Source: Nymphaea colorata (lineage: Eukaryota > Streptophyta > Magnoliopsida > Nymphaeales > Nymphaeaceae). Taken from it: a DNA stretch of 64,000 bases. Made by a program: the position numbers and the translations under genes. Below are positions 1-47,596 of the stretch, piece by piece. How positions within the stretch are numbered: the first letter of the stretch is position 1; every line of letters starts with the position of its first letter. A model generated the notes under the pieces. That model ran no database searches. It was not told the DNA's origin and saw only the letters and a program-made list of their open reading frames with translations. The stretch covers positions 18,011,934 to 18,075,933 of the forward strand of contig NC_045138.2 of the NCBI RefSeq assembly GCF_008831285.2, in the 5' to 3' direction.

Positions 1-1594
1 CACTCCACTAGTCTTTCCAGGAAGCTAATTGTAAAATCTGAAGCTGGGTGGCTGTTCATTGCAACCTCACTAAGAAAACAGAAGAGAGAAAATGAGGCAT
101 GACCAACCATAAGTGCTCTTTGATGAGCATCGACATTACAAAAGATGCTAGTAACCTGTTCATCATTCAAGCAGTCTGGAAGATCATGTAGAAACACTTG
201 TAGACAGGAAGCAGCAGTTACTGGGGAGTTTTCATGCAAAGCATACTCCATAAGGTTGACTGCGTCCTGCCTGCTGCAAACCATAGCTGCAAGCTTCCGA
301 TCACAAACATCTTTAAGCTTTTCACAACAAAACTTGTTTGCAAAGCTCAATATTTCAAGTATTGATTCTGCAGGCAAATCCTTCAACTCATTGGTCTGGC
401 TAAATTCACTTATTGCCCTCATACTCAACGGAGAGATCCCATTCTCAGATAGATCAATTTCTTCCTGTGATGATTCCGTGAAACATCCATTGAGCATCGT
501 CCGGAAAGGAATAGATAGAGCTGCCATCTTTTGGCGATCACACTCTACCTTATCATCTCCTATCTTGAATATCACATAATCAGAAAGGCCTATAGTGTTA
601 TAATCTCCGGTCTTTATGTCTTGAGAACCCTGAGCCCCAAAATCAAGTTGCGAAGACGCAATGTCCAAATAACCAAACTCTTGAGTACATTTGCCACAAG
701 AGGCAAGCAAATCAGCGATCAATTCTTCTCCTTGCTTTTCATACTTCAACCATGCACCAAAAACCAGCCGCTCGTGTATGGTGCTGGCGTTCAGCCAAGC
801 AGACCTGAGGCTTCGGCGAAGCAATTTCACCTCCCCAAGACCCCGAAACACATGAAACTGCAACAAATAGAGGCTTGCCTTGTCATGGACGTCAGAATTC
901 TCGAGCTCTTCGTGAATCTGAGCTAGGATCTCAACATAATCGAGTGGCTTAAAATGTGGAAGGATCGGTGGTTCTGCTACCTTGACGAGAGGTTCACTAT
1001 GACAACAACAAGCACAAACATTAGCTTCGAACCGAATGAGAAAACAGAACCCGAAAGAAGACGAACTACTGACGGCAATTGCTCATAGAAGCAGTTCAAC
1101 GGGGGTAGAATCCGACCACAGAACTAAAAACAATGAAGCCAAACGTTTTTTAAATTGATGTAGAGAAGAAAGACCCAGCTAAGGGGAAAACTCAATAAGA
1201 AATTGCATCTTAAAAAAGGGAAAATGGGTTCAAATGTTACTTTCTGCACTAGGAATCACCAATTTTTACACGAATTAGATGATCACAGTACCAAAATACA
1301 TATCCCTTAACATGGGCGCAGAAACCTACCAACAGGAACAACCAGAGCGACGGGAACGCAAACCCAATATTTCAGACAGAAGCCGCTCAAGTATGGTTAT
1401 TGCTGTCAGATAGGATGCCCAGAAGAACCGAATGGACAAACGGAAGAGAGACAGAGAGAGAGAGAGAGAGCTTACTTGCAGGAATACGAAGCGAGCTTGG
1501 CAAGCTTCCCCCTCTCAACCTGAAGCCATGACTGAGGGTTAAGGGCATGCAGTTGGGTCTCCTTACACGAGTCTGAAAAGAAGGGCTTTCTCAT
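1..1594 (-). CDS. EOL1: ETO1-like (EOL1-type) BTB-TPR protein, copy 1, 5' part only (runs off left edge)
   Basis: This is the 5' part of a CUL3 substrate-adaptor gene that in the known family binds type-2 ACC synthases and limits ethylene synthesis. Exon 1 is 1476-1594, starting at the ATG of MRKPFFSDSC; the family motif HALNPQSWLQVERGKL is intact. Its donor reads TGCAA|GTAAGC. Exon 2 begins at 996 after an acceptor ending TCATAG and stays open to position 1 (332 codons), covering the N-terminal CUL3-side region, the BTB domain and part of the following BACK-like region. The TPR half would lie left of the window. Against copy 2 this exon has 21 substitutions and no indels or stops, so nothing visible makes it a pseudogene. 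A one-base difference near 1030 lies in intron 1 and does not shift the reading frame. Identity with ETO1/EOL1 is from recognised motifs; the choice of EOL1 over ETO1 is by N-terminus and is an inference. Confidence 0.88.
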
Positions 1595-2117
1595 ACCACC
1601 AAACAAGAAACCTCTTCTCTCTTCCCCAGGTCTCCAAAATCCTCCTCTGGATCCCACAGGGTTCGTCAAGAAGCACAACAGAGCTACAACAAACCTCCCA
1701 CTCTGAACCAAATATATCCAGAACCTTTGCACCACAAAGAAAAGGCGCTCAAAACACCCACAGCCCCTACCAAAACCTTAGAAACTTTGAAGCAGACAAA
1801 GGGGGAAAATTAGAGGAAAAGAAAAAAAAGCCCTCCTCTGATCTCCAAAACTATACCTCACACTCACAGGCTCACAGCAAGAACCAAATAACAAAAGAAA
1901 AGGGGAAAAAAAAACCCCACTATTTTAATCCCAAAATAATCCTACCGAGCGGAAAAGGATTTAAAGAAAAGGGGGAGAACACACAAACTGTAGCCACAAA
2001 AGCAACAGAACTTATACCACTGTTGGGAAATGGAGCCAATAACCAGAAAAACGAAAATAGGCCGCACAAAAAAAGGAAGAAAAAGACCTTTACTCTGCTC
2101 AAACGGCTCTATTTCAC

Positions 2118-2152
<35 letters not shown>

Positions 2153-2850
2153 CTAGTCAAATTTTTTTTTCAACTACTGAACTCTCCCAATGGTTCACGC
2201 AGAGTGAATCAGTGTGCCACCATGACTTTTTATTCCATTAAAAGAGAAGAGAACTGCAGAGAAGATAACAGAAATCTCTGACACCCTCATTATTGCAGGG
2301 GAAGGGAGGAAAAACCCATTGTGCATATGCCAAGGTTCCGAAAAATGCAATAGAAAAAAGAGAGCCCAACCACAAATGAATGCATCGGCCGCCCTTAAAT
2401 AAGAAAGCAGTAAAACATTTCTTTCGCAGATTGTTGGCATTTAAGAGGATTGATCCGGTGGAGGCTGACCCTTCCCGGCAGTGGTGTGAGGACCATCCAC
2501 CTTTTTAGTGGCGCGTATAAAGCCAGCTTGCTCTGCTCAAGATGAGGCCTTTTGGACCTCGGTCTGTCTGCCTCTGGTAACTCCCCACCATGCTTCAGTC
2601 AAATCACCGGCACCCAAGAATCTAGAATTTGTTGTCAACTCGTTCTTTTTACCTTGTCTTTCATAACTGCAGTATATACTATCCTTTTTAGATCTGGTCT
2701 TGAGATATTTTGGCAAAAAAAAAAAAACAACAGAAGAAAACTGGATTTTTGTTGGACGCACAAGTAAATAAGCTCGACAAGATATACACGCCTGACATGA
2801 ATATAGATAAAAAAAAAAAAAAACAGCAAGATTTAGGCGTTTTTTCTATG
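1595..2850 (-). promoter_or_regulatory. Upstream/5' UTR region of ETO1-like copy 1
   Basis: This region lies 5' of the copy 1 start codon and is closely matched by 28032-29220 upstream of copy 2. It has no convincing coding potential. A (GA)n tract at 2121-2150 is long here and reduced to a few units in copy 2. I could not fix a transcription start or TATA box on the gene strand. Confidence 0.5.
2121..2150. repeat. (GA)n microsatellite
   Basis: About 15 GA units upstream of ETO1-like copy 1; the copy 2 counterpart near 28560 has only about four. Confidence 0.9.
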
Positions 2851-5800
2851 CTTAATCTCACTGTAAAAGCACAAGGCTTGCAAAAAACATAAGCGTTATA
2901 AGACCAACAAAGTTAAGAACTCCCACAAAGAAAATCTTATTTTTAATTCAGATAAGCTAACATTTTTTTCCCTTGGAGAATCGAATTTCAGTGTTTATAG
3001 AGCTGTGACCAACTACATAGGAAGCCATCGCAGTCACACATAAGGACTTCATCACCACCAGAAACTATGTGTTCCTGTTTAACTTTATAATCTGATAACA
3101 GAACTAAAAAAGTGAAAAAGAAATTGCTTAACTACCATCTTTGGTGAGAATTATTATAATTTAATGGCAATAATACTGGGATGGGGTCACCTGGTCAATC
3201 AAACATCATGTGCACTGCCAATCTGGTGACATCGACATGATTAGTTTCTTCAGAATTAAAAAAAACCAGGAACAAGATGAACTCCGTTTATGGCCGATCT
3301 CCATGGCATTTCCTAGAGAGAGAAACCGGAAGGGAGACGTTTGGCTTCATTAGTGTACGGCTCTGAGCGCACATGGAGGGGGTGGCTCCTCCTTTTCGTA
3401 TCCTTCGCTTAATAGGTTACCAGCTGTGACAGTGCTGTAGCACATCGCGTCTCATGCCTTCCCTCATCTTTCTGTAGTGTCATCATTAATTACTTTTAAT
3501 TAGTTGATTAATCAGTTAATTAACTACTCTATCTTGTTGACTGTATCGAATTAAAATCGCTTTTTGATGATGTGATACATGATTCTTGTGTGTGAGTTTT
3601 TTCAGCACACCCAAATCCAACATTCGTTAAAACAAGCGTTCAAGTTTGGACATAATTGAATTTCAAACCTGAGAAAGAACGGGGTTTGACTAAGGGTCCG
3701 AACAACGCCAAAGCCTTCACCCAACTTTTCATCCACATAGATTGCTTTGGTGCATAAAAGTGGTGGCATTATTGCGCTTAAACTTGCTAGTCAGTGACCC
3801 ATCATTTTCAGCACAATGAATTGACACTTTGGAGGTTTGAAAGGGTGATTGGTCGCCTGCTAGACCCTAGAGATCCCGTTGTACCAAAGTCCAAACCGAG
3901 AGGTTTAGATTTTGGAACTATACCACTTAGAATAAAAATGGCAATGGATCAAATTAAAATATGATATTATCGTGACAATGTCATATTATTCTCAAATTAT
4001 TAAATTCAACGAAAGCTAGATCCTCATTTTTACATATAATCAGGTTTAGATGTCCGTTAAGATGTTTGCTTGTTTCTAAGAAAAAGTGTACACGGTATCT
4101 GCATCCGAATACTAATTGAATCAAAAATAAGTTTTCTTATCGAACATAACTTCTTCAATTCTCACTCAATCATATATTTAAATTATATCCAAACATAATG
4201 ACGGGGCTGCGAATCGGGCCGGGTACGTACTCAGACCAACTGGAATCTGAGTTCATACGCTAAAACTAATTATGGGGCCAGTTAGGTGGGTCCAATAACT
4301 TATTTTTAATATTATTTTATTCAAATACATATAATTATATATTTTATTATAATTATTATATGTATAAATTAAAGTATATTTAAAAATATAAATTTTATTA
4401 TCATAAGATTGGCCCAGGCCTGAGGCTCGGGGTTGCAGGCAGCCTGGCTAGGCCCGAGCTATGTTTCTTTTTTTTTTTTTTTTTTATAAATATACAATGT
4501 AGTGTGGTTTTGAGATCCTCATAGCTGAAATCCACAATTTGTTGAAACTGTAGATTTCGGCCATTGTTGATTTTGGATCCCCCGGACCTGAGATCCATGG
4601 GCGTTGTTGTTCATTCGTTGGAATTAACGTACATAAATCATAAAGATAGGTTTCTATTGTCATCATAATCATAGGTTTCTTTTGTCATCGTAGAAAAGTA
4701 AAGTCCAATACAAGAAACCAGACTTGAAAATCTAGTCTCCTTTTATGAATCGCTTTACTAATTTCTCTATCTTTATATATATATATATATATATAACTGA
4801 AACACATAGATAATATCTTCTATTGGTTTTTGAACTTGATGCATGCACCAATTTTTGACACAATTTCTTGTTCATATTGAAGCCCCCAATAAAATGTCAT
4901 ATTCTATGAAAGTCAATAATTAATTACAAGTAGGGTTGATTGGTTGTGCGATCCACCAAATCGTTTTACTCAGGGAAGTATAAATGGTGGTTTCGATTAG
5001 ACCTAAGCACTATCGAAATGGATGCAATCCAACCTTGCCGGAATCGCATTCTTCTGTTTGAGCTGCCATTAAGATAGGTTTGAGATTATTATAGTTCTAT
5101 AATCCCCAAGGTTCATGACTATCAACTAAAGTATCGCACATCTATCAAGAAATGACATATATAAGAATCGAACTGACGACAAGACTTTTGCTGACACACC
5201 AGTCCGACCAGCTACACTATGCACATCAATGAATACAAACATGCATGTATTATCCTTGTAAGGCTTGAATTATTATCGAAGCAATCTATTAGAACTATTT
5301 TGTTATCTATCTCTTACCATACCACAATATTCATACTTTTAATCAACTACATGCACATTTTGTATATAATAACAAAGATTAGGGTTAGGGTTTTGAGGCA
5401 TATATATTTGGCATGACATGAACATGATGAAGCTAAAACGATCCCCACATGCAATCGCGGGTCCATTAGACACTTCATCATTATGCCATGTTTCAATTTC
5501 TTAAACTTGAAAAACAAATATTTGTGGTTCCAAGATCATAGTCAAACTTCCAGTGGCCCTGAAGCATGTAGTATTCATTTATTAGAACAAAATATTGGAT
5601 CGTGTCTAGCATCATTTGGACATTGTCATCATCAAGTATCGTCTCATCTTCCTAGTTGCATGTACCATGAGTTGTCTTCCGTCTGAAGTCATTTCATTTC
5701 CGAGTGTGTGACAGGTTCTTCCTATGTTGGCTTACCAGCTACTTTTCCATCCTAGGGCAAGCAGATCAGCTCGAACTTTTATTTATATACACGAAGCAAT

Positions 5801-5928
5801 TAAAGTAACTATCTGGTTTCGTTATATCAAAGCTGGATTTATATTTTAAATGTGTTATATAGCTGCTCTTTGTAAACAAATTTAACACGGGGATCTTAAT
5901 CACTTGAACTCCTTGATCTTTTTAGTTG

Positions 5929-5959
<31 letters not shown>

Positions 5960-7088
5960 AATTTCATAAGAATTGTTTTCTGATGGTTCGAAAAGCACAT
6001 TTTAACCAAGAAACTGGTTGGCTTAATACTTTTTCAGTTCTAAATAACTCTTAAGATCATCACCATATCTAGTAAAAAGTAATAAACCGAGTTAATAGTC
6101 CTTTTTCCTGTAAATAGATAAGAAGTTGTACACTTCTTCCAATTTTTTTTTTCCCTTCTGCTTGGAGAGAGTTGTTGACTTGCCCCCAAAATATAACGAG
6201 TGCTAAAGGTTGTTGGCTTGCTCCCAAGACAAGCAAATTTAATCTAATTTAGTTTATCATGTCCTTGAATCAAGGAGACTTTTGGGTTCCAGAAAAGGAA
6301 AAAGTATTGGAACCAACTGATCCAACAAACCTCTCCATTGTCAACTCTCTATTCGATCATGAGACTTTCAATTGGATATTGAAAGATTGCTGATCGGGTA
6401 AAAAGATTCAACTGCTGAAGAATATAATATATTACTTTTTGCTGCATTGGCATGTTTCTTTTTACTTTTTGAACGGGTGAAGAAAACATAGCCCGCTGTC
6501 CGAGGCAAAGGGGCTAGCCAGTTACAACCTTTAAAATTTGAAATATATATAAAGAAAGTATGATGAAACTTTGAAAAGAGTTTCCCTCCTGAAAATTTTG
6601 ATAAAATAATAGCAACATTAGGAGGAACAGTTTGATTGATATAATTTCTCAGATATGTGGTTCTGATGTTACAGACTGTGTGTGTCTGATTTTAAATCCG
6701 CGGATCTCAAATCTTGAGAATATGACACGTATCTCACCACAATCTTGTGCCTCCTTCAATACATTTTGATGTCGTTACGGAACCGGAAGGCTACATTTAC
6801 GAAACGGCACTTTTTTCTTTGTTTTGTACAGAGCGCCTGTTTTGGTGGATGCAAACACGAGCCGTTTTGTCCCTGCTTTGTAAGTTGCACGTTTGACGTT
6901 ACTGTCTCTATTTCGGTCATGTTAGAAAATATTTTGATATTAAAAATTTCAAAAAAGAGTTGATATTTGTTACATATTTGGATTTGAATTCAATTGCAAA
7001 TATGTGAATAAAATTTTATTCCATACATGTATATATGATAAAAACCCACTTCCAAAATATACAGATACTGAATATAGGAATTTTAACT
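2851..7088. other. Copy-1-specific 4.2 kb block, no gene seen
   Basis: Sequence between two points that in copy 2 are only about 615 bases apart (29220-29837). It is AT-rich, has (TA)n runs near 4768-4793 and 5934-5956, a GC-rich repeat-like stretch at about 4200-4470 and a short telomere-like string near 5382. Open frames are short and unrecognised. Either an insertion in copy 1 or a deletion in copy 2 would produce this; I saw no clear terminal repeats at the edges. Confidence 0.6.
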
Positions 7089-7390
7089 AGCAATATTGAC
7101 GTTTATTATTCAATAAAAACATTTATTTAAGACCAAGTTCAAATTAGATCGAATGTCATTTCTTGGGACTTGTTCCGATTTGGTTCCTTAATCGGACGTT
7201 ACATTTTTTTCTCATACCTATCTCATTTAAAATAATTTGTCAGAATTCAGTCCATTAACATTCCTAAATGCATTGCCCGCTACTTCAGAGTTTAAGTCGA
7301 GCCCTGCTGCTCACGTTAAAATCAAGTTAAAAAAAAAACAATTTATTACTCTTACAACTTCATTAATATATCTGCCGTTACATGGTTTTA

Positions 7391-7490
7391 ATACAACTCG
7401 ACAACATTTATATTAATATTACATGCGTTTAATACAACTCGACAACATTTATATTAATATTACATGCTTTTAATACAACTCGACAACATT
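7391..7490. repeat. 41-bp tandem repeat, about 2.4 units
   Basis: The unit beginning ATACAACTCGACAACATT recurs at 7391, 7432 and 7473. This stretch is specific to copy 1. Confidence 0.85.
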
Positions 7491-7514
7491 AAAGATCAAC
7501 AGTGGATCTTGAGT

Positions 7515-8549
7515 ATACATTTTTACGAAAAGAGTACTAATGAGTAAATATATGAGTATGCGTGGACTTCTTAGAAAGTAAGTGAAAGTCCATAATTTTC
7601 TTTACTTTTGGAGCCAACGTATCAGTTCTCCAAGAGAATGTTGTTCTTATTTTCCGTGAGCACGTTGAAGAGATATTTGAACCATCTACGGAGCAGCGGT
7701 AAATTAAACTCTTTTCTAACTGATAAGGACAGTAAAAATAAATAAATAAATAAACGCAGAAACAATTAACTAAGACACCGATGAGAGTTGCAATCTTCTC
7801 GCAAACACGCACTTCCTTAAAAAAAAAAAGTTGATTATAATTTTTTTTAAAGAAACATTATGAGGTTTGATTTTCAAGGGACATAATATAGCGGATCGGA
7901 TTAACCAAACAAAAACTATAACTATGCATTGGCATTATGCTCATTATCTTGACTTAACATAGATTGATTGGGCAGCTGCTGGTTCGAGAGCAGTTGTTGG
8001 TTTGGTGCCCGCAAACATCAAATTTCTACCGACGGTACGAAGCAGGTATATCGCCCAGGCGAGGGGTTAACCAAACTTAGGATTTTATTTTCCCAACGGC
8101 GAAGGCGAAGTTTCTCGGCTTGAGTGCAGTTTTCTTATGTCACAAGAAATAAAAGAAATTTGAAGCCAGGAAAGGAAAACCCAGTCTCAAACTCTCCTAC
8201 CAATAGGAGTAAAACCTTTACCTCAAAATAATACTTCTTCCTTTGGCATCCTCACACCATGCTAGCTAACTAGTTCTCCTAATGAGGGCAAAGCTCCAAT
8301 ATGGCTCAAAAGAGCAGAGATGATCATTAAATTCTGAATTGAGATATAAATCGCAATTTCAAAATTGCAATATTGTCATACAATAACAAGTATATCACAT
8401 ATTTCTAAAGATAGAAGCTTAGATTTTTTTTTTATTGTGTCTTCAACTCATGCAAAAATCTTATGTGCAAAACTTAGTTTTGAGCGGAAATTTTTGGCGA
8501 AAGAGCACTAATTCAAAAAACTTTAAACCCTAAGAACAATTGAATGACA

Positions 8550-10761: not shown

Positions 10762-13599
10762 TCTGGACTTAACTTTCTAACAAAGGCTGCTAATATTAGA
10801 ACCGTCTATTATGTTAGATCAAACAGTGCAAATTAAATTAGATGGTTGAGTGACTCTAAAAACCCACAGTCATTATTCTATTTTCCTTTATATATATATT
10901 GACGGTTAAGAGAAAAAAAAAATGTGATGAACATTAATACACACTTTCTTTAATATGGACAGGCTGATGGCTGAGTAACTCTGAATAGCTAAAATCATCA
11001 TTCACTCACTAAGGCCGTCATGTATATATATCGTAACTTGTGATTCCTTACGCAGAAAAAAAAAAAGATAGAAAAAAGATAAGGACTTCTAGATAGGTAA
11101 AATGTTGAAAAATGAAAGGAACAACAAAAAATACTAGGCATATTTCTACATCCCATACAACTTTTCTAGGAGACGCTCCCTTCCTTTGTTAAATAGAACA
11201 TAAACAACAAACCAATTTTTACATCATGATTTTGTGAATTGAAAATATCAGACCGTTAATCTTATGTTTGTTATAAAATCTTATTTACAGGTCGCATTTA
11301 AAAACTGTTTTCAGTAGAACCCAAGCTTATATATTGTCTATCCAATTGAATGTCTAAAAACTGGTTAGAAAATAAATGAACTAGTAAACGGTGAATAGAC
11401 AAACAAAATTAATTTTATATTTCTCTTCATTGAATGCTTAATAAAAAGCGTCATTAAATTAAAAAAAAAGTCTAAGAAGCAACTTTGTTTGGACACATAC
11501 AGGCGAAAATCTCTTTCATGTGTATAGATGAAATAGGTAGGAGACCAATCGCTTGGTTCATCCAGTCACGTTTTAGTTTAAAACCAATGATCGTATATTG
11601 TCTTTTTCATATGTAAAACTGTAAAAATCAACACAAAAACATATCTTTTGGTCCTAAAAATTAGGTTCATAATATAAAAAATTTCTAATTAATGATTAAT
11701 AAATTCTTATGAAATCTTTAAACAAGCCTCGAGATCCAAGTCTACCATAAACACCTTACAAGTGTGTTTGTTTCACCACAGATCTCAGAACTGCGGTGAT
11801 ATGAGATCTCTAGGGTTCCATGGATTCAAGGTCGGACCCCTCCCCTCCTTGAATCCGGTCTTCAATCTACTGTTTCTAACATGTAACATGGATTTAAGAT
11901 CCACGTTACAGAGATCTTCAGTTTGTTTAAACGGAAGATCTTGGGATGCATGCTCTCAGGTTGTATGCACGAGAATAGTCAAAACTCGATTGGAAATTTG
12001 TTGTAACCATGCTATCAAGTTTTCTGTCAAAGAACAATCCAAAGCTTGATACATGGAAAACCCGGATTAAATCTATTTGCGTTTGATTCCAGCGCTAGTT
12101 GATCCCTATTCGACTCCAGATTCAACTATGCTAGAATCCGATTAGGTTGGTCCCCATCACGAGTGCAACCCATAGGTCCCCATATATAGATCAACAAGTG
12201 CACCTTCTATGCCCATTCTCTAATAGATAAGTAAGAATATGGCAACAACATACAAAGGGAAATTGCAAGGAAGCGCCCCCTCTCCAACTTGCCTACTTGA
12301 TGCTGATTTCAAACTTTAGCATGAGTGGTGCTGCCTTTTCTGAAAGGTCAAATTAATTTCTTGGGCATATGTGTTATAGTCACTATTGCAAAAGGGGGGA
12401 TAACCAACATCTAATAATGCCGATTGGATGACTCATAGTGGAGCACATCCATATTCATATTACAACAATTATACATATGCAGTTGTTACATTCAATTGTA
12501 TCAACCAGTTCTAAGCCATTGAATAAGCATAAAATGAATAACTAAAACGCACGTAAACGGGTCAGCAAGTTAGTTACTTAAAATGAAAGGTGTAAAACAT
12601 ACTAAAAGAGAATCTGATTTTTTTTTATCTCATCTCCCGTTTTTGTCGCGTTTAATGGTTAATGATCAGATGAAGGAAGTGACACTATTAGAAGGCAAAG
12701 ACAGTAAAGATATACATATATATATCTACATTATATGATTATATCAGAAAGAAACAGGGAAGTAAACATTGAACACGATATTAGCAAGTGAAGACTACAA
12801 CTTCATTTCTTCAACTTTAATCACCATGAAGAAGGCGCACAAAATACTTTTTTTTTTTTTTTCTGAGAAATGACCAATATTTTCACTATTGTAGCGTAAA
12901 ATCCGTCGATTCATTCCTTGGCACGTGACAACTGCCAATCAATAGAGAAAAGAAAATCCCGAAACAAATATACCCTTCAATACTTTTTACATATTCTCCC
13001 TTTTCCCGAGGGGAAGAATATCCGTGGTAGGTTGAGCCCTAAGCTACACAAACTCCAAGACCATGCAGGTGGGTGGGAATTTAGAGGCCGTGGAATCCAA
13101 TCAAAAGATTGGAAAAGGAATGAAGCACGCTAAATCTAAGATGAGACCCTTCAAAAGGAAGTTGCACTCCTTTGTATCTGATAGGACACCACTTGATTGG
13201 AATAAACTTCGATCTACGTTAATGTGTAGGTGTAGGTGAAGGTGAAAATTAGTTTGGTCCTCTGAGTTGGTATGTGGATCAAGATTTTAACCAGTCAAGG
13301 AGCTCAAGTTACAAGGAAATTCCAGGATTTCAGGGTTGTTTTAATGTAAATAAAGTTCGTAGTTGTAAACAAGGCCGTGACTCGCATGCTTCGAGTTGAT
13401 GTGTTCGTCTAAAGAAAATTTCAAAGTTCGAAACAAGGCCATGTGTGAGACCTTGAACTTAAAAGGCTCCAAGGGAGGTCAAAACTTCTAAAAGCCGGAT
13501 GATTCTTTTGTTATGGGCTTAAATATGTGATGCAGAAGATTATTTGTTCATTCCCAAGATACCATGCTGATTTTTCCTTACTCTCAGCTTGTTTCGGAC
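9525..13599. other. Duplicated non-coding block (copy 1)
   Basis: Collinear with about 32736-38110. AT-rich, with a (TA)n run at 10722-10756 and poly-T near 10330 and 12850. No gene recognised; open frames are not kept between copies. Confidence 0.6.
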
Positions 13600-14013
13600 T
13601 AGCGATGTCAATGGATTGGATTCAGACGGATATTATATCCATTTTTTCGGGTATTCACATATTTGGATTCAAATTCGGATAAAAAAAAGTCATATTTGAA
13701 TCAGAATCAGAATTAGAATCTGATTTTTATATTTATATTCGAATCTGAATCTGAATCCAAATTCTGAACTGGATTTTGCCAATTTTTAAAATTTCATAGC
13801 ATTAGATGCATGATATTTGTTTAAAAATGAATCCATATCTTAATCCCATCGGATATTTACGTATAACGGAATCTGAATCTGATCGGATGCCATTTATTAA
13901 ATCTGAATCCGATCCGATTTATTAACTGGATATTAATTTTTTTTTTTATATCGGATTTTTTTGGATTGGATCGGAAAGATATCTTATTCAAGTCAAATAT
14001 ATTGACATCCCTA
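13600..14013. mobile_element. Ac/Ds-like (hAT) non-autonomous element, copy-1 specific
   Basis: 414-bp element with ends TAGCGATGTCAAT and ATTGACATCCCTA, which resemble the Ac/Ds terminal sequence TAGGGATG. It is flanked by near-identical 8-base direct repeats TTTCGGAC (13592-13599) and TTCGGGAC (14014-14021). The sister copy shows the empty site near 38105 (CTTCGGAACC). The inside is made of repeated variants of AATCCGAT and AATCTGAAT and codes for nothing. Confidence 0.75.
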
Positions 14014-14526
14014 TTCGGGACCTATATAGCAAGCATGACACCCATCAGTTAGAGAGTCTTGCATTCACCATTTGCAATTGCATGAGTAGCACTTACAGGA
14101 ATCGACCGAGCCTGCCCGTCCGACCAACTGTGCTACACCCTCGAGCACAAAAAAAAAAAAGCTTTTAAGACAAAGGGAAAAAAAAAAGTTTCTTTCTCGA
14201 AAAGACGAAAATACAACTTACACGGTCACATGCAATGCGCTCAAGCGGCAAACTACCCAGGTTGACTGGTATGATAAGTTATAGAAGTCGGCTGATTTCC
14301 TTGGCTCATTTTGAAAAGAAAGAAAGATCATCAACGTTCATTGTCTCCAAATCTGTTGCCACTTAACATGTTCTTATTGTGAGGTGAAATCTTATTGGCT
14401 TGCTTTATGGCTTCATTCAATTTACATGAAGCTTATTTGGCCTTGGCTGGGTCTAACAAATGTACCTTCTCGGCTCGATTCATGAATCCTTGGAAGTGAA
14501 CATGTGACATATCATGCATAACTAAT

Positions 14527-14870
14527 GTTGATGTTTGGTCGATCAATCGGGTATCTGAACGAACCGCAAAATCGGATACGAAAAAAAAATTTAATATCCG
14601 ATTAAGAAATCAGATCGGATTTGGGTTTAATAAATGACATCTCATCGGATTCATTTTTAGACAAATATCCTATATCTAATGCTAATACATTTTGAAAATT
14701 GGCAAAATCCAGTTCATAATTCGGATTCAGATTCAGATATGAATATAAAAATCGGATTCAGATACGACTTTTCTTTGTTTGTATTAGAATTAGAATCTGA
14801 ATCTAAATATGTGAGTATCTAAAAAACGAATATGATTAAGGGTATGTCCAAACTGAATCCGATGCGTTGA
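14527..14870. mobile_element. Relative of the hAT-like element, diverged (copy 1)
   Basis: Shares the internal AATCGGATTCAGAT-type repeats and degenerate ends (GATGTTTGGTCGATCAAT; GTTGACTTCC) with 13600-14013, in the opposite orientation internally. Present in both duplicate copies (counterpart 38934-39362). Confidence 0.45.
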
Positions 14871-15520: not shown

Positions 15521-16145
15521 TAAAGGTAGTGTTTGATTGCAGTTCCTATTTTTGGTGGGAATATAGATTTAGAAAAGGTTTCCGGCGGGTGGAAAGGGGG
15601 AAAATACGTTTTCTTTTGTTTTTTTGAGAATTGTCTGCTTGTGTTTGGTTTGTGAAGATTGAGATCAAACTCCACGTCATTGGATGAAGCAGTGTTGTTG
15701 ATATCGCCCCACGTGACACCTGGGACATACTAGTTTGTACACAAACAATGACAAATAAATAAATATGGAAATGACTAAAATATACTTAATTAGTCAAATA
15801 TGTACTGAGATTAATCAACTTTCTGAATATTATATTAATTTTCTGATAAACTCGCATTGCAACATGTTATGTTTATGTTGGGGTCCATGCCATTTACTAT
15901 TAAATAGGACGGCTGAATCCGTTCTTCAAGCTAGAAACACGTCTTTTGGGCCTCAAATATTTAAGTTTCCGGTTGCTTACGAAAAGATAAACATTTTAAA
16001 CTAAAGGGTTTTACGTGTTAAACTAAAAAAAAATCAATTATATAGATCGCATATGCAAAATTCTCACTTCAATCAGTTAACTAAATGTTTGAAATGAACA
16101 CAGCATCCTATTACTAAACCAATTAACAACTAGACATAAAAACGA

Positions 16146-16185
<40 letters not shown>

Positions 16186-16674
16186 ATAAATATATGTGCA
16201 TGGGAATGGATTATGAAGGAAGTTGTAGTGATGTCCAAAAAGGCTCATTATTTGGACAGCCGTCTCTTCCCTCTTCTTCGTTCACTCTCTTCTGTGCTGT
16301 GGTCCTCTTCTTCTCCCCTCCAATCGCCTTTCTGCTTTTTTCACGCGCCATTGTTTCTCCATCATCATCCTTCTCATCATAACTCCTTTTTATGTCCGTC
16401 TCTTTCACGCTGCCAAGTTGACCACTCCTCCATTAATTTGTCCTTCAATGAAAATGCGTTGCGCTCAATATGGTCTTAAAATAATCAAATCTCGATAATT
16501 CATTGCTCTCAATGTTGTCCTAAAAATCATCAAACTCGCTCTCTATCTCTCGTATTTTCTGCAAAAGATTTCATTAGATTGAAAATGATGGTATCATGTG
16601 ATTGATTCGATAAAAGATATTGAATGAGGATCAATATATAGGTCGTCGCTCTCGTCTCATTCAATCATACGCCC

Positions 16675-16804
16675 CAAAACTGACACACATACAGGAATAA
16701 AGTTGGTATTTGATAGCTTTGGATCTTATATTCATATCCCAAAACTGACACACATACAGGAATAAAGTTGGTATTTGATAGCTTTGGATCTTATATCCAA
16801 GGCT
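16675..16804. repeat. 65-bp tandem duplication, copy-1 specific
   Basis: The unit beginning CAAAACTGACACACATAC occurs at 16675 and 16740 with about 57 identical bases; copy 2 has one unit near 41391. Confidence 0.9.
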
Positions 16805-19674
16805 GATCTCAGATCCCTTTTATGTGAGACTCATGGTGTAAACAAATACCTGATTTTAGGATTTGAAATCCTCATTTTATGACCAAAATGAATTTGAAGA
16901 TGGATGAGACGGGGATCTGACTGAAAATCCGTAAATTTGACATTCTCAAAGATCTCAAATCACTTCCGATCTCAGATCCAATCTATGAAACACCACCTAA
17001 ATTGTCTCATAGATACAAATAGCTTTAACTAAATTTGTCTCATAGATAGAAATAGCATATAAATCACCTCAGATCTCAGATCCAAGCTCTCAAACACCGT
17101 CTAAATTGTCTCATAGATACAAATCGCTTTAACTAAATCTGACGGACTTAATATGGTTGATCTGCTGGCAATTCATCCCTACACTGCTAAAAAATCTGAC
17201 ATATGTACAAGTTGGTTTAAAGTATTTCAAAGTCATTGGCAATGAGGATGTCTTTTTTCTTTTTCCTTTGCGTTTGTTGAACATCTTTTTGCATTAAAAG
17301 AATGATCTTATGAGGACGAATATTTTTAATATGCAGATGATGTAGTTCAGATTTGCATGATCAAATTCAATCCTACTTAACACATTCGAGTCGAATACTT
17401 TTTTTATTTTCACATTTCATCACAATGATAATGTCAAATAAAAGATCGTTTGGTTACTTTGTGTGTCTCAATTAAGTCACCAGCTAGCTATTCGAAATCT
17501 ACTTAAATTTTCTGAGACATTATTATGTTGAGGATACTGCTTTCATCGAGTACGTTTTCTTAATGATTTGCACCCTTTTCATGTTTCAATAGTTTCTTCA
17601 CATGGTCTGGTTGAAGGATAATCTTCTGGTTTTCTAACGTAAGTGATTTGATTAGAATAACATCAAGCAACAAGATAAACATAAATCAGGTTGGGGCCGG
17701 TGCAAGCCCAAGTTTTATTTAATTATAATTGACATCTTGATGTTGATTTTTTAGTATAAATTATATTCTCCTAATCATTCGTAAATAATTTTGATCCAAA
17801 TAATTGCTGTTGTTAATTTACATAATGACACATTTCTTCCTTGTGAAGAGAGAGAGAGAGAGCCCATATAATTTGGACAACCTGATGTAAAATTGCATAT
17901 CTGTTTATCAGAAAACTGCTGGAACAAACAATAGAATGTATTTTATATGCATGGTAAGAAAAAGTTTATTTTAATCATGAAAAAGTATTAAAGTAGACAA
18001 ACATATTTGGATCCATCGCTGTTGGTGCAGAACAGTCAGGGCTCCAGCCATTTCCCATAACTGCTACTTCTCTCAAGTTCTCAACTACAAACCGTAGAAA
18101 TGAAATGCTCTAGTTAATACCACTTTCTACCTACTTTTAGATGCCACCCTGAACCTCAAGGATGAAAGCAAGGGGTGGTTTTGAGCTTGCATTGAATTTC
18201 CAAGAATTTGCATACTCACTCGTGTCGATATCCACGAGAAAAAAGTTCCAATGAAACTACTGTCGACGGGACATTCGAGGGGATTTTCTTTTATCATTTT
18301 TCTCAATCCAAAACAAGAGGTGGCTAATCTAAGGATGCATTTTACGAAATAAAGAAGGAAGCCAAGATATATCGATGTGCAGAAGCAAAAAAAAAAAAAA
18401 AAAGGTTTGAAGAATCGATGCGGATTATGTATCCCACGAACTGGGGGTCAGAGGAAGTTTGGATCCATGCAATAATCAGCTTCTTTTTCTTACTTGTACT
18501 TCTTCATCTTCACCAATCTGCCTAGATTGAAGGGATCCAGCTTTCATATGCGGGAAAGTTTCAGACAAATCATCGAGTGGGAAAATACTTCTCGAAGGGG
18601 AGGCAAGAAAAATGTTTTCCTTACGGAAAAAGGGAAAAGCGTTTGAGAAAAGATCACGTATTTTTGTGTTAGGAAATTGCTTTCCCGTGAGAGAACTAGT
18701 TGTGAACTTGTTTCCCATGGGAAAGCCTATTCACTAAGAAAATGAAGAAACTGTGCCTCTGTAGTTCTTTTGCGCTTTTGGGGTTATGAAAATGCAAGAG
18801 AAGGCTAGAGGTTTAACGTGGCAATATAAGCAGAAGACAAGAGGTTTAACATGGTTGGTGGAATCTTCATCTAAATCCCATGAAAGACAGACACATCTAC
18901 CAAAGGGCCCATTTGACAACAATAACAGTATGTTACTGTTGCAGATTATGTTGCTGTTGCAGATTCATAAGACAATTTTCAAATAACATCTCATCTCATC
19001 TTTTCGGCTTTCGTATATATACTAGTAGAGATCTGCCGAACTCTTGCCGAAAACGGTACAGTCCAAAACAGCTACGGCCGGCAAAGTAGTTTGCCGAAAG
19101 CATTACCAGAAACTGACGAATTGGCTTATATCCCAGACAAGTTTATGTGAAGGAGAGTCCCGACCCAGCAAATTATGCGCTTAGAGGCATGTTCTTAACT
19201 TTTACTATGTCAACAGCAGTAACTATCAAAATATGTATGAACAAACCATTGCCAGAAACATGAGAAATTGGAATATGAACGGAAACTTAGATTAGGGATA
19301 AGACCAGACGCATTCAAATTTCACATATAGACACGTTTTTAACATCTTCTCATTATGCAATTATGTTTGTGCCTAGTTATTTACTACATATCAGGCTTCT
19401 GTTTCAAGGTGAGTTCATAAATGTCTTCATTTTAAGCTGTAAATTTTTGGTGTCATAAAAGCCTCTGATTTTTGTATCTAAGCCTGAAAAGTGGCTGCTG
19501 TTACAAGTATTTCCCAATCCGCATAGTTAGATTACAGTAAAAGAAAAATCATTGGCATGTCTTTTGAGGTGTTCTGCTTCATCCTTACCTCATTTGTCTG
19601 GGATATCCCAAGAACAAATAGATGATAGTTTCATTCAACCCCGATTTTGTCCACTCTCTAAATAATGTGGAAGG
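16805..19674. other. Duplicated non-coding block (copy 1)
   Basis: Closely matches 41455-44229. A stretch with open frames near 18476-18720 has a longer frame in copy 2 (42682-43134), but small indels break the frame between copies, so neither is supported as a gene. Confidence 0.6.
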
Positions 19675-27852: not shown

Positions 27853-27924
<72 letters not shown>

Positions 27925-30530: not shown

Positions 30531-31913
30531 GGTTCGGTGAATGGTGGGCTATAAGCATATTCACTTTGGTACCCTATTCTATTTTATATGGCTTAAGCCC
30601 TACTAGACCTGACCAACTATGCACTGTTCATTAATCTATAACCCTTCTCCCTATTTGTCCCCTTAATTAGGGTTGGGCAGTTGGGCGGCTCGTGCCTCAC
30701 TTTATTTTTTGGGTATGCTTTCTACTGTTTAAATGGTGTCGATGAGATACTCGACTCGATACCCTACCTAATTTATCATAAGCAGTTATAGTTGGTAACA
30801 ACGCTGGGCTATTAGTATATTCATTTGATACTACATTCAAAATATAGCATCCCCAAAACTAGACCTGACCCACTATGTGCTGTTCCGAGGGAAGGGTGTT
30901 GATGAGTAGACATTTTTACGAAAGAGTACTAATGAGTAAATATATGTGTATGTGTGGACTTCTAAAAAAGTAAGTAAATGTCCATATTTTTTTGAGTTTT
31001 GGAGCCAACCTACCAGTTCTTCAAGAGAATGGTTTTTTTTATTTTCCGTGAGCACGTTGAAGAGATAGGAGCAGCGGTAAATTCAACTCTTTTCTAATGA
31101 TAAAGACAGTAAAAAAAAACGCAGAAACAATTAACGAAGACATCGATGAGACTTGCAATATGCTCGCAAACACGTACTTCCTTTAAAAAAAAGTTGATTA
31201 TAATTTTTTTAAAGAAATATTCTGAGGTTTGATTTCCCTACTTTTTTAGGGGACAAAATATTGCTGATCGGACTTACTAAGCGAAAACTATGCATTGTTA
31301 TTATGCTCATTATCATGACTTAACATAGATCGATTGGGCAGCGGCTGGTTCGAGAGCAGTTGTTGGTTTGGTGCCCACAAACATCCAATTTCTACAAACG
31401 GTAGGAAGCAGGTATATCGCCCCGGCGAGGGGTTAACCAAACTTAGGATTTATTTTCCCAACGGTGAAGGCGAAGTTTCTCGGCTTGAGTGCAGTTTTCT
31501 TATGTCACAAGAAAAAAAAGAAATTTGAAGCCAGAAAAGGAAAACCCAGTCTCAAACTCTCCTACCAATAGGAGTAAAACCTTTACCTCAAAATAATACT
31601 TCTTCCTTTGGCATCCTCACATCATGCTAGCTAACTAGTTCTCCTAATGAGGGCAAAGCTTGAATATGGCTCAAAAGAGCAGAGATGATCATTAAATTCT
31701 GAATTGAGATATAAATTGCAATTTCCCAATTGCAATATTGCCATACAATAAGAAGTATCGCACATACTTCTAGAGATAGAAGTTTAGATTTTTTTTTTAA
31801 TTGTCTTCAACTCATGCAAAAGTATTATGTGGAAAAATTTGGTTTTGGGTGGAAATTTTTGGCCAAGGAGCACTAATTCAAAAAGCTTTAAACCCAAAGA
31901 ACAATTGAAGGCA

Positions 31914-36140: not shown

Positions 36141-39100
36141 ATTTTAAACAAGCCTCGAGATTCAAGTCCACCATACACACCTTAAGAGTGTGTTTGTTTC
36201 ACTGCAAAACTTAGAACTGGGGTGATATGAGATCTATAGGGTTTCATGGATTTAAGGTCAGACCCCTCCCGTCGCTGAATCTGGCCTTCCTTCGATCCAT
36301 GGTTTCTAATGTGTAACATGGATTTAAAATCCACGTTATAGAGATCTTCAGTTTGTTTAAACTGAAGATCTTGGGATAAATGCTGTCACGTTGTATGCAC
36401 GAGAATAATCAAAACTCGATTGAAAATTTCTTGTAAGCATTCCATCAAGTTTTCTGTATCCAAAGCTTGATACATGCAAAACCGGCATTAAATCTACTTG
36501 CATTTGATTCCAACGCTACTTGATCCCTGTTGGACTCCAGATTCGATTATGCTAGAATCCGATTAGGTTGGTCCCCATCACGAGTGCAACCCATAGGTCC
36601 CCATATATAGATCAACAAGTGCACCTGCTATGCCCATTCTCTAATAGATAAGTAAGAATATGGCAACAACATACAAAGGAAAATTGCAAGGAAGCGCCCC
36701 CTCTCCAACTTGCCTACTTGATGCTGATTTCATACTTTAGCATGAGTGGTGCTGTCTTTTGTGAAAGGTCAAATTAATTTCTTGGGCATATGTGTTATAG
36801 GCACTATTGCAAAAGGGGGGACAACCAACAATACGTCGCAAAGCTATCTCTCAACTAAAGTAGAAAAGTAGCACTCAGGACAATCAAACATGAAACATGC
36901 CCAATGCTCGTCTCTTGCCTGACTAGCTAAGTTACACTCCTTATATATGACAACATCTAATAATGTCGATTGATTGGATGACTCATATGGAGCACATCCA
37001 TATTCATATTACAACAATTATACATATGTAGTTGTTACATTCAATTGTATCAACCAGTTCTAAGCCATTGAATAAGAATCAAACGAATTACTAAAACTCA
37101 CGTAAACGGTTCAACAAGTTAGTTACTTGGAATGAAAGGTGAAAAATATACTAAAAGAGAACGATTTTTTTTTTTCTCATCGCCTGTTTTTGTCGCATTT
37201 AATGGTTACTGATCAGTTGACGGAAGTGACACTATTAAAAGGCAAAGACAGTAAAGATATACAGATATATCTACGTATACGATTATATCAGAAAAAACAA
37301 CTAACATTGAACATGATATTAGCAAGCGAAGACGACAACTTCATTTCTTCAACTTTAATCACCATGAAGGAGTACAAAATATTTTTTTTTTCTGAGAAAT
37401 GACCACTATTTTCACAATTGTAGCGTAAAACACGTCGTTTCATTCATTGGCACGTGACAACTACCAATCAAGAGAGGAAGGAAGTCCCGAAACAAATATA
37501 CCCATCAATACTTTTACATATTCTCCCTCTTTCCTATAGGAGAATATCGGTGGTAGGTTGAGCCTCAAGCTACACAAACTCCAAGACCATGCAAGTGGGT
37601 GGGAATTTAGAGACCGTGGAATCCAATCAAAAGATTAGAAAAGGAATGAAGCACGCTAAATCAAAAGAAAGTTGACTCCTTTGTATCTGATAGGACACCA
37701 CTTGAGTGGAATAAACTTCAATCCACATTAATGTGTAGGTGAAGGTGAAAACTAGTTTGGTCCTCTGAGTTGGTATGTGGATCAAATTTTTAACCAGTCA
37801 AGGAGCTCAAGTTACAAGGGAATCCGAGGATTTCATGGTTGTTTTAATGTAAATAGAGTTCGTAGTTGTAAACAAGGCCATGAGATCATGAACTTGCATG
37901 CTTCGGGTTGATGTATTCGTCTAAATAAATTTCATAGTCCGAAACAAGTCGAGGGGGGGTCAAAAGTTTTATAAGCAGGATGTATCTTTTGTTATCCGCT
38001 TAAATATGTGATCGTGAAAGCTATTTGTTCATTTTCCAACATATTCTGAAGTGGCCAAAGCTCCTTTTCATTTCTCCTCCTTACTCTCAGCATCTAGCGC
38101 TGCTTCGGAACCTAGATAGCGAGCATGACACTTATCAATTAGAGTGTCTTGCATCCATCGTTTGCAATCTTAAAGAAGTAGCACTTACAGGAATCGACTG
38201 ACAAAAAAAAAAAACTTTTAAGACAAAGGGAAGGAAAAATAAGTTTCTTTTTTTTCAAAATACGAAAATACTACGTACACGGTTGCATGCCACGCCGTGA
38301 AGCTGCATGGCATAGTACATAGGTTGGCTGGCATGATAAGTTATAGAAGTTGGCTGATTTCCTTGGCTCATTTTGACAATAAAAAAAGATCTTGAACTTG
38401 TGTCAAATCTGTTCCACTTACATGTTCTTATTGTGAGCTGAGCTCTTCTTGGCTTGCGCTGTGGCTTGATTCAATGTAATATTTGGCCTTCGCTGGGTCT
38501 AACAAATGTACCTTCTGGGCTCGATTCATGAATCCTTGTGCAGGTAATCGTGATCAACAACTAATGAGGAGGCCTGTTGTAGTGTTGAATTAGAAGTCTA
38601 ATGTATTGTTTGATTGGATGGGCCAGTGAATCCGAGTGCCAATACATCCCATGCCAGTGGGCGAGCCACATGGTGGATCACAAAATTTATTTATTTTTAC
38701 GTTAATAATTTGATATAATTGATTATATATATAGGTGCCTTTAAAAGCATTAAAGTTGTTGAATAAATGTGCCATCATCAAAATTTCTGGCTCCTCTAGT
38801 GTCCCATGTTTGTCCTAGCATGGTAAGACCTAGTAGTGAAACAAAAAGTTTTTAGCTGGACATTCAAATAACTTAATTAGACATTTGAGTTCTGATGCAG
38901 GAGCTAAGGAGGAACGCAAGGGCTTCGGGGATGCCAATATATCATATTTGAATGGGATATTTGACCGAACTAATCCAAAAAAATCGGATACAGAAAAAAA
39001 AATTTAATATGCGATTAAGAAATCAGATCCGATTCAGGTTTAATAAATAGCATCCAATCGGAAAATATGCGATTAAGAAATCAGATCCGATTCAGGTTTA

Positions 39101-40087
39101 ATAAATAGCATTCGATCGGATTCAGAATCGGATTGATCAGATTCATTTTTAGACAAATATCCTATGTCTAATGCTATTACATTTTGAAAATTGGCATAAT
39201 TCAGTTCAAAAATTCGGGTTCGGATTCATATATGAAAATAAAAATCCGATTGACTTTTCTTTATTCATATTCAAATCAGAATTTGAATATGAATATATGA
39301 ATAACGAAAAAACGGATATGATTAATGATATACATGATCAAAATCTGATTAGTTGACATCCCTGGCTCTGGGTCAAGTCCAAAGAAGCTTCCCGTATAGT
39401 TGGACCTGACTCATAGTTGCAAATGGACTGAACCATGGCTGCACACCTTCCATGACGTTGCATTTGGTGTCGTTAGAAATAGTTTCTGATTAAGAACAAA
39501 CAACCCCAAGTAATCGGTGAGTGGGTTTGTTGCTTCTGTAATTTGAAATTGTTGAATCCAAGCCCTTAGACCGGTGTATTCTCGACCTGCTGTGAAGTAG
39601 CGCGCTGTCGTTGATGTTTAGTAGGGGGAGGGAGTTATGCATCAACATTAGGAACACCATATGAATATTTTTATAAATTTGTTTTAAAGATTTGAGCAAG
39701 ATTCATGGAACATTATACAACTGTTCAAGTATTTCAGCCATCCACCTTAAATTTTAAGGCATGTTCATGGACTACTCGCAAGGGCTTCCTAATACCAAAT
39801 GATCCCTAAGCCGTAAGCTGATCAAGGTTCATAAATGACACGGTTCCGGTAGGCTTGTCTTGCTAGAATACTCGTTTGCTACCATTGACAGGCTCGATCA
39901 GCACACTGGCTGGTTCACATGAGCTGAGAATGGAAAAGGCATGGCTCTGATAGTAAATAATATATACGTGTGAACAGTTGCTCATCCTGTACGCATATGG
40001 CTTAACCATTATGTATGCTAATATATAGGGTATATATTTTCATTTTATCATAAAAATGAGTTACTAAATGTTTGTAAAAACACTTTA
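36141..40087. other. Duplicated non-coding block (copy 2)
   Basis: Collinear with about 11720-15313, with copy-2-only stretches near 36829-36952 and 38560-38930, and without the hAT-like insertion found in copy 1. No gene recognised. Confidence 0.55.
38934..39362. mobile_element. Relative of the hAT-like element (copy 2)
   Basis: Ends GGGATGCCAATAT and GTTGACATCCC match the family termini. It contains a 58-bp internal tandem duplication (39011 and 39069) that the copy 1 counterpart lacks. Confidence 0.5.
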
Positions 40088-44738: not shown

Positions 44739-46657
44739 GCACAGTACCGTTGGTTTTTGGTGCTTGAAAGAAATAGGTTTAGTGCCGAAAACATACTCAC
44801 TATGAATGGAAGCACTGGGAAAAGTGAAATCTGGAAAGAAAATGTTTCGCAAAACGCTACAATAAGCTAACTGGTACGTTTCAAAACGAATGGTGTGAAG
44901 GGCGAAACAAAATTTAGAAAAAGCATGCAAGTTTGATGGTAACTATGATGAAAAAGTAATGGAACAGAGTCTACTTTATCTCCACGTAATCATTGAGCAG
45001 GTGTTTGGAAACAAGAACAGTAACACCATGTTTCATGAATATAATAAATATGAAGAAAACAATGAAACATAGGCTAGTGTTTGGCAATAGGAACAGTAAC
45101 ACAACGTTTCATGAATTCAACCAAAAAATGACGACAGATCCAAGTAATATTCGAACCTTTAACTGATTATGAAACATTGTGTTGGTATTCCTGTTACCAA
45201 ACGGCCCCAAGAAGACTTTTTGTATCTCGTTCCTAGAATACAAAGATCATGAAGACACATTTTCTCTCCTGGAATGGAACCGAAAAATGTACTCTCCCCA
45301 TTAACATGAAGCATCCATTCTGCAGTGTTTCCCGAATACCAAGGATCATAGGATAGGAGGTTATATATTGTTGCCAGATAAAGTATGAAAATCTTTAAAA
45401 ATTCGCTTCTCTCAAACCAAAATTTCTGGCTCTACTACTTGTTAAAAGTTCAATAACTCCTCCACAAGTCTAAAAACATAAGGTTCTTGGCAAGCAAGGG
45501 ACATGAACAAGGAGCCGTGACGGAGGCACATGTGGGCTAGTATAGGCAATCACTTACCTGCACAAGACCACCCAAATTGCTTATTTATGTCAGTCTCTTA
45601 TACTCTCATTTGCTAATTGTCTACATAAAGGTGCCCCTCGGCCATTGGTTTTTTTGGAGAGTTGAAAAATTTCTAGCTCCGTCCCTTGTAAGTGACCTCA
45701 TGTTCGAGGCGCGATATATGGAAGGCTGTTGATTCTTCTATCGTGAAACCCATTTATATCAATAAGAAGGGAACAAGAAAGCCTGAGATAAGGCTCCTCC
45801 ATGAGCCTACAAGGACCACTTATAAGTGTCGCGACGAAGTTGAAAGGACGTCACAAGTTTTGAAACCTATAAGGTGCATCCCTTGCCATAAGGTGGAAGC
45901 TAGGTGTATTCTTTGCATGAGATTGGAGGGGACCTCATCTACGAAGAGATGGGGACCTCTCTAAGTTTTTACCCAATGTTGTCCATATTGGGATGTTGCC
46001 TGACATGCTTCCCAACTCTCTATTCCAAAAAAATTGAAATTAATCTATAAATAAATTTAGAAAACTCGATTGTTTCAGTAGTTTTGGCAATGAACCAACT
46101 GTGATGTGTATCGACTGAAACGGGCCAATGCGGTACGACGGCGACAAGTTGCTAGAGTCCGGAGTTCTTTTTTTCCGTCATAGAGAAATGAGAAGAAAAT
46201 TATAGAAGATCAAACTTGAGGACAAATCTAAATCCAGTGACAACTCAACTGTTCAGTTTGTCTTTCCCTTGTCATAACATGGGGGGAAATTAGGTCCACA
46301 AATGTGTGTTTTGAGTACGAAGCTATACTTGGATCCAAGCTAGGCGATGTAACCGGAACAAAAGGTTAATTCCTCACACTGTTCTCCATGCTATTTCATG
46401 TCCTTCCATATGAAGAGATCTAGTAATTATATCAACTATACTTGCTTAAGTAATTATATCAAGTATAGATTGAGACCCCAATCGTTTTATATTTTTCATA
46501 TGTTGCCCTGAAAATAGAGCGTTTTATTTGGGTTGTTAAATGTATTTCCATACTGAACGCATGGTACAAGTTGTTGGCGACTATATGTAATCCGTATCCT
46601 TATTTCAATTCTAAGGTCATGATGTCCGAGTTTTACCAACTGTTGGCTTGATTAATG

Positions 46658-46714
<57 letters not shown>

Positions 46715-47460
46715 ATTTTAGTCAATGCCATCCCATATCAAGGGAATCTCCCCGCTAATGAGAGCCAGTTTGATTAGAAAAATTATAGGAAAATTAGTAT
46801 ATTTCTGACATGTCGGGGGCAACAACCTTAACTTTTTGCTAAAAAAAATATTTTAAACCTCGTATCAACATTCTAATGTAGTTGTAAATACTATTTGAAC
46901 ATAAAATATGTCTTCGTTCAAGCTACTGTTAACAAAAAGCATTGTTTTTTCCACTACTAAAAATTTGATGTCTTAATAGCCGTTCATTTTGTGATTATTA
47001 TAGAGACATGTTAAATTTAAAAAGTGACTATCTTAGCTTAGCATATGATTATCATCAAATCATCCCTAAGGTCATATCTATATGATTAGATTATATAAAA
47101 AGTGTTTAAACAATTAATTTTGAATGCTCTAGTATCTAGAGTTAGAGTATATAGCTGGCTGAGTTTTTTAAAATTATCTCAAAATGTGCGTTCTATTGCT
47201 AAACACCTTGGCCAAGTAAGTGTAATCATCAATACTGGTTTTGTGATTGTTTTTAATAAAAAAAAAATAAAAATAACCATTAAACCATTGAGGTAGTTGG
47301 CTATATATATTAAATCAAATTGTTAAAAATTACCACAAAATGTGCGTTTACGAAGGCTAATTGCTGAGTTATAGTTTTTCAAAATGGACGTATCTTTTGC
47401 GACGGTTTTAAATGACATAAAGCAAAAAAAAAACCATTTAATCACAGAGATAACAAGTCG
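44739..47460. other. Copy-2-specific 2.7 kb block at an AT repeat
   Basis: Copies match up to 44738/20177 and resume inside a (TA)n tract at about 47460/20178. The extra DNA includes a MITE at about 45074-45207, an unrecognised 90-codon frame at 45692-45964, and adjoining (TA)n and (GA)n tracts at 46660-46713. No retrotransposon ends or transposase were found. It could be an insertion in copy 2 or a deletion between AT tracts in copy 1. Confidence 0.6.
45074..45207. mobile_element. Tourist-like MITE inside the 2.7 kb block
   Basis: Left end GTGTTTGGCAATAGGAACAG and right end (reversed) CCGTTTGGTAACAGGAATAC are inverted repeats running on into ACACAACGTTTCAT/ACACAATGTTTCAT. A partial related end lies just upstream at 45001-45060, suggesting a nested or tandem insertion. 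Confidence 0.6.

Positions 47461-47487
<27 letters not shown>
47461..47487. repeat. (TA)n microsatellite at a breakpoint of similarity
   Basis: Pure TA run marking the right edge of the copy-2-specific block; copy 1 has a shorter run at 20178-20190. Confidence 0.9.
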
Positions 47488-47491
<4 letters not shown>

Positions 47492-47596
47492 CTATGTTAG
47501 TTGTATTTTAAAAATTTATTTCCATTTACATAATTGATAAGGGCAAAAGACTTTTTAAAAATGTGCTTTAATTATGTTACGCGACGTTCATTGCTT

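Follow-up and report, generated by a model that had tools for sequence, protein, structure and literature searches.

An apparent tandem duplication of an approximately 27-kb segment carrying an EOL-type BTB-TPR gene in Nymphaea colorata

About 27 kb of the Nymphaea colorata contig NC_045138.2 (C1, 44.0 Mb) very likely forms a direct tandem segmental duplication, which leaves an EOL-type BTB-TPR gene in two head-to-tail copies. The window is the whole 64,000-nucleotide stretch C1:18,011,934-18,075,933, plus strand; position p corresponds to C1:18,011,933+p, and positions of zero or below lie to its left. In Arabidopsis this adaptor class directs type-2 1-aminocyclopropane-1-carboxylate (ACC) synthases to CUL3 ligases and thereby limits ethylene; ETO1, EOL1 and EOL2 are its BTB-TPR members there (PMC8081955). 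A preliminary description made from the raw letters of the window had proposed a direct, collinear similarity from 1/26381 to 20307/47596 broken by insertions and deletions (indels), a tandem unit of 24-27 kb with its junction at 20307/20308, and a first copy running off the left edge.

Self-comparison of the window by BLAST bears out the collinearity, giving a direct chain that runs from 1-1470 / 26381-27862 through 20178-20307 / 47474-47596. All chained pieces share one orientation, and their offsets, between about 22.7 and 27.3 kb, drift along the chain because of indels. The chain comprises 15 blocks and 14,097 ungapped columns at 91.2% identity, with 144 gap openings, and many of its pieces have an expectation value (E) of 0, which excludes chance similarity. 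With 30 kb added to the left of the window and 10 kb to the right, 104 kb were compared at a floor of at least 60 bp and E 1e-6, and this sequence contains no N. The left flank supplies the first 6.7 kb of copy 1, including the last three exons (3-5) of the gene and a portion of exon 2: -6724 to -5978 matches 20315-21059 at 92%, -5983 to -5407 matches 20900-21437 at 84%, and -5059 to 1470 matches 21453-27862 at 93%. Copy 1 is thereby complete, extending beyond the left edge as anticipated, and the unit measures 27.0 and 27.3 kb in its two copies. Leftward of -6724, no match to the unit was detected at this floor in about 23 kb of flank. The unit and its junction are placed as follows:

Copy 1 of the unit: about -6724 to 20307 (27.0 kb; visible at 1 to 20307; start at C1:18005209), from self-BLAST and the left flank
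Copy 2 of the unit: about 20308 to 47596 (27.3 kb), head-to-tail behind copy 1 and abutting it
Tandem junction: 20300 to 20322, where the end of one unit meets the start of the next, a few bases at most being ambiguous, from comparison of the three junctions

Over the whole unit, identity is 92.5% across 20,144 ungapped columns, about 220 copy-2 positions being counted twice; the aligned share is 74.5% for copy 1 and 73.0% for copy 2. The two copies have a common end, at 20307/47596, and at the junction the unit end (..CGTTCATTGCTT) runs into the unit start (..ATTATGCATCC..) with few ambiguous bases between them. The check suggested in the preliminary description, a self-alignment extended leftward (here by 30 kb), found copy 1 opening with the sequence present at 20315, so that the proposed junction was right to within about 7 bases. 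The first reading of the raw sequence was thus correct in detail, including its prediction for sequence outside the window.

No repeat was detectable at the breakpoints, where the three junction sequences have at most a few bases in common, and the outer flanks are mutually unrelated at the floor given above (about 23 kb on the left against about 26 kb to the right of 47596). The lack of a breakpoint repeat makes non-homologous end joining or replicative template switching the likelier route of joining. Unequal crossing-over between flanking repeats (non-allelic homologous recombination) appears rather improbable: the unit does contain dispersed short repeats, and a flanking repeat may have eroded since the event, but the outer breakpoints lack similarity and the junctions share few bases. 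A single event would have linked the two ends of the unit, right to left, with no repeat detectable at the breakpoints, leaving a five-exon EOL-type BTB-TPR gene in two copies placed head-to-tail. In its direct orientation, abutting copies, unrelated outer flanks, intact coding sequence and signs of conversion, the pair resembles ordinary plant tandem segmental duplicates and differs from them in nothing essential, although the unit is fairly long (27 kb) and holds a single recognised gene.

In assembly sequence, two haplotypes of one locus joined in series by the assembly would look the same as this duplication, with collinear copies and an abrupt end at one junction. We regard such an artefact as very improbable. 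Noncoding divergence in the Kimura (K80) model is 0.088 over 17,500 columns; the stretches at 9.3-13.6 kb and 14-16.2 kb stand higher, at 0.126 and 0.162 respectively. Roughly 26% of each unit is unaligned. The pair's divergence and its large indels are well past the usual allelic level, and a noncoding divergence of 0.088 makes mis-joined alleles unlikely. The sequence is gap-free at and near the junction, and the coding sequence of copy 2 differs from that of copy 1 by two indels. Genome-wide matching used an assembly of 407,766,735 bases in 783 contigs, where a 1-kb probe from the unit found only two long matches, at these two loci, the others being of about 100 bases or less (best 40 of 74 candidates); for exon 2 as well (9 of 9 candidates), these are the two best-matching places. 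The published assembly spans 409 Mb in 804 scaffolds, of which 770 are anchored to 14 pseudo-chromosomes, and was built from PacBio RSII long reads with a contig N50 of 2.1 Mb (PMC7015852), which also speaks against serial alleles.

In each copy of the duplicated unit the minus strand encodes a gene of five exons, whose frame is free of internal stops (886 residues in copy 1, 883 in copy 2) and whose four introns all follow the GT/AG rule. The gene models were obtained by exon mapping, guided by provisional Arabidopsis AtEOL1 and AtETO1 protein sequences (which also served as outgroups), followed by inspection of splice sites. The exons are:

Copy 1 exon 1 (coding): 1476 to 1594, minus strand, starts MRKPFFSDSCKETQLHALNPQSWLQVERGKL
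Copy 1 exon 2 (BTB domain): -722 to 996 (visible at 1 to 996), minus strand, by exon mapping and Pfam
Copy 1 exon 3: -1133 to -842, minus strand, in the left flank
Copy 1 exon 4: -2345 to -2036, minus strand, in the left flank
Copy 1 exon 5: -3709 to -3489, minus strand, in the left flank
Copy 2 exon 1 (coding): 27922 to 28031, minus strand, 9 nucleotides (codons R-G-K) fewer than copy 1
Copy 2 exon 2 (BTB domain): 25658 to 27376, minus strand, by exon mapping and Pfam
Copy 2 exon 3: 25247 to 25538, minus strand, by exon mapping
Copy 2 exon 4 (TPR): 24027 to 24336, minus strand, by exon mapping and Pfam
Copy 2 exon 5: 22767 to 22987, minus strand, with a 38-nucleotide length difference at the stop codon; ends ...SQVV, against ...SQEP in copy 1

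The two proteins are 97% identical. Ten translated stretches were scanned against Pfam, and the curated cut-off was passed by three EOL exon stretches only: the BTB domain PF00651 was found in both copies (E 5.2e-7 in copy 2, 1.2e-6 in copy 1), and TPR_1 in the exon-4 frame of copy 2 (E 4.2e-7), the copy in which TPR was scanned. A CT/GA microsatellite lies right behind the intron-1 splice donor, at 27835-27916 in copy 2, where it is longer (about 41 units), and at about 1445-1473 in copy 1; it might influence splicing.

The preliminary description had spoken of two ETO1-like genes. Two intact members of the family are indeed present, whereas their class is that of EOL1/EOL2, and ETO1 lies separately on C10. 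Copy 1 is 66.5% identical to the provisional AtEOL1 (883 columns), 53.5% to the provisional AtETO1 and 55.8% to the N. colorata ETO1 (NcETO1); its greater nearness to AtEOL1 than to AtETO1 points to the EOL class, and a tree that includes the provisional Arabidopsis sequences places the pair with AtEOL1, apart from ETO1. On these comparisons the duplicated gene is EOL-type, not ETO1. When the exon-2 protein was compared with the whole assembly (9 of 9 candidates scored), only the pair and one C10 gene (C10:20263000-20272000) were found. The latter matches the provisional ETO1 far better than EOL1, groups with ETO1 in the tree and has an N-terminus resembling that of the provisional Arabidopsis ETO1. 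Within reach of the exon-2 search, the genome would thus hold one ETO1, on C10, and the tandem EOL pair.

Likeness to the Arabidopsis family extends to the combination of BTB and TPR and to a glycine, retained in both copies, equivalent to ETO1 G480, the residue changed to cysteine in eto1-16 (PMC8081955). The same source describes G- and P-rich stretches in the ETO1 N-terminus (PMC8081955), which the EOL-type N-terminus of the pair lacks. Homology predicts for both proteins a role as BTB-TPR adaptors, presenting type-2 ACC synthases for CUL3-based ubiquitination and thereby restraining ethylene. Unlike the Arabidopsis family, EOL is represented here by a recent tandem pair alongside one ETO1 on C10, and copy 2 further departs from that family in lacking the R-G-K codons and in its altered C-terminus. 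Among the titles and abstract openings listed in a literature search, none describes this pair, and no paper was found that combines ETO1-like with tandem duplication.

Coding divergence between the copies amounts to a synonymous Ks of 0.065 (standard error 0.011) and a nonsynonymous Ka of 0.015 over 883 codons; the pairwise Ka/Ks of 0.24 indicates purifying selection overall. The exon-5 Ks of 0.28 is overstated, as its terminal codons are misaligned by the 38-nucleotide difference, and the same codons are included in the overall Ks of 0.065. The lineage does have a whole-genome duplication, the Nymphaealean event, whose Ks peak lies at about 0.9 and which the genome paper sets earlier than, or near, the divergence of Nymphaeaceae and Cabombaceae, given there as 147-185 million years ago (PMC7015852). 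We give almost no credence to the idea that the pair is a remnant of that or another ancient event, brought together later: a peak Ks of about 0.9 compares with 0.065 for the pair, and the copies abut head-to-tail on one chromosome. The Ks refutes a whole-genome duplication remnant unless conversion reset the entire unit, flanks included. Scaling linearly from the Ks peak and its date gives 10.6-13.3 million years from Ks and 14-18 million years from noncoding divergence, so that the tandem duplication would be, very roughly, about 10-18 million years old.

Divergence is unevenly distributed along the unit. Introns differ at 66 of 2520 columns (10 of 901 in intron 3), against 1383 of 14,980 in other noncoding sequence. 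The longest exact identity between the copies lies in an intron:

Exact 600-bp identity in intron 3: 24417 to 25016 (copy 2) and -1963 to -1364 (copy 1), a likely gene-conversion tract

Shuffling the noncoding columns 300 times produced identical runs of 142 at most. The second-longest exact identity (472 bp) lies in exon 2, and for coding sequence these shuffles are not a fair control. From these long identical runs we infer gene conversion as the simplest reading: since the duplication the flanks have diverged by substitutions and indels, and the middle of the gene was probably homogenised at least once by later conversion. Against this, the shuffle control assumes independent sites, and a cumulative test shows the low divergence to cover the left part of the unit from -6724 to 9039 (0.055; 0 of 500 shuffles as high), beyond the gene, so that constraint or regional rates could explain part of the pattern. 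At 16200-17960 in copy 1 and its copy-2 counterpart, noncoding sequence shows a divergence of 0.043, with neighbours at 0.10-0.16. This stretch has no convincing open reading frame (ORF), a 128-residue ORF at 16093-16479 having one sub-cut-off Pfam match; it is possibly an unrecognised gene, a regulatory element or a second conversion tract.

The two proteins appear to have evolved unequally. Of 32 differing rows 27 were counted, three gap codons and the last two codons being dropped, and with NcETO1 as outgroup copy 2 carries 12 derived residues against 3 for copy 1 (p=0.035). The provisional AtEOL1 gives 13 against 4 (p=0.049) and the provisional AtETO1 12 against 3 (p=0.035), the three tests not being independent; with all 32 rows kept, AtEOL1 polarises 18 as derived in copy 2 and 4 as derived in copy 1, leaving 10 undecided. 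In the protein tree the copy-2 branch measures 0.028 and the copy-1 branch 0.006. The three outgroups are unanimous at 14 of the differing sites; copy 2 deviates from them at 12 of these and copy 1 at 4, two being common to both. The copy-2 departures include R804L and A846D in the C-terminal part (exons 4-5). Copy 2 also has two indels that keep the frame open, the nine nucleotides (R-G-K) absent from exon 1 and the 38-nucleotide stop-codon difference that turns EP into VV. Both are read as copy-2 losses because the provisional AtEOL1 has R-G-K and ends in EP.

Copy 2 thus seems to be evolving faster than copy 1, which means that it may no longer be equivalent and favours copy 1 as keeper of the ancestral role. 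This asymmetry has points against it: it concerns 15-17 polarised sites and distant outgroups, two of them provisional sequences, and is weakly significant (p 0.035-0.049). The likeliest outcome, judged from these comparisons, is that copy 2, which has gathered more changes at conserved residues, would drift towards a weaker or specialised version, with copy 1 retaining the ancestral role, rather than a plain doubling of dosage. A simple dosage effect, with functionally equivalent copies kept for quantity, is considered unlikely. Both frames are intact, Ka/Ks is 0.24 and the G480-equivalent glycine persists in both copies. It accords poorly, however, with the excess of copy-2 departures at outgroup-agreed sites, with R804L and A846D, and with the sequence more than 1.25 kb upstream of the start codon, where copy 1 has 4.7 kb and copy 2 has 1.7 kb that fail to align with each other, 84 bp excepted. 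In Arabidopsis, EOL1 and EOL2 play a part auxiliary to that of ETO1, and eol mutants, whether single or double, lack a triple-response phenotype (PMC8081955). A strong dosage effect would thus be less probable for a doubled EOL than if ETO1 itself had been doubled.

A more tentative suggestion, itself rather unlikely, is that the EOL branch doubled here independently of Arabidopsis EOL1/EOL2 and that copy 2 is specialising, through its altered conserved residues towards the C-terminus, missing R-G-K codons, new C-terminal end and distinct distal upstream region, while conversion keeps the gene middle alike. If so, an early-diverging aquatic flowering plant would offer a natural experiment in the subfunctionalisation of ACC-synthase adaptors. 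With three family members found, unequal evolution and signs of conversion, function can be compared copy against copy. The pair is an ordinary young tandem duplicate, modestly interesting for its asymmetry.

Two stretches account for large differences between the copies:

Copy-1 stretch upstream of the gene: 2848 to 7509, unaligned to copy 2 (29219-30902) except for 84 bp at 7085-7168
Copy-2-only stretch: 44739 to 47473, falling between copy-1 positions 20177 and 20178

Elsewhere in the genome, 44739-47473 matched only through a dispersed repeat of about 300 bp and a microsatellite (best 40 of 281 candidates); lacking other genome matches, this 2.7-kb stretch could be sequence lost from copy 1. 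No prominent direct repeats of the long-terminal-repeat kind or terminal inverted repeats were seen in 2800-7560 (best 25 of 43 inverted pairs) or 29200-30920, and a transposon origin of the large indels is not established by this check. No Rfam family scored above its gathering threshold. The right flank, 47694-64000, holds 13 stop-to-stop ORFs of at least 120 residues; the four scanned (47698-48414, 54103-54837, 57341-57850 and 59899-60420) had no Pfam match.

Several smaller repeats lie within the unit. Copy 1 holds a sequence of about 155 bp repeated locally in tandem (-6137 to -5978 and -5983 to -5816, 92% identity), whose counterpart in copy 2 is single. The dispersed repeat of about 300 bp, at 46827-47130 near a microsatellite, has at least 39 further matches across the genome (69-79% identity), and another of about 100 bp, at 10800-10900 by an AT microsatellite, has many matches (72-88%) on many chromosomes. 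Related A+T-rich repeat pieces occur in both orientations at 13632-14018, 14568-14836, 30365-30537 and 38928-39322, and probably belong to a dispersed element.

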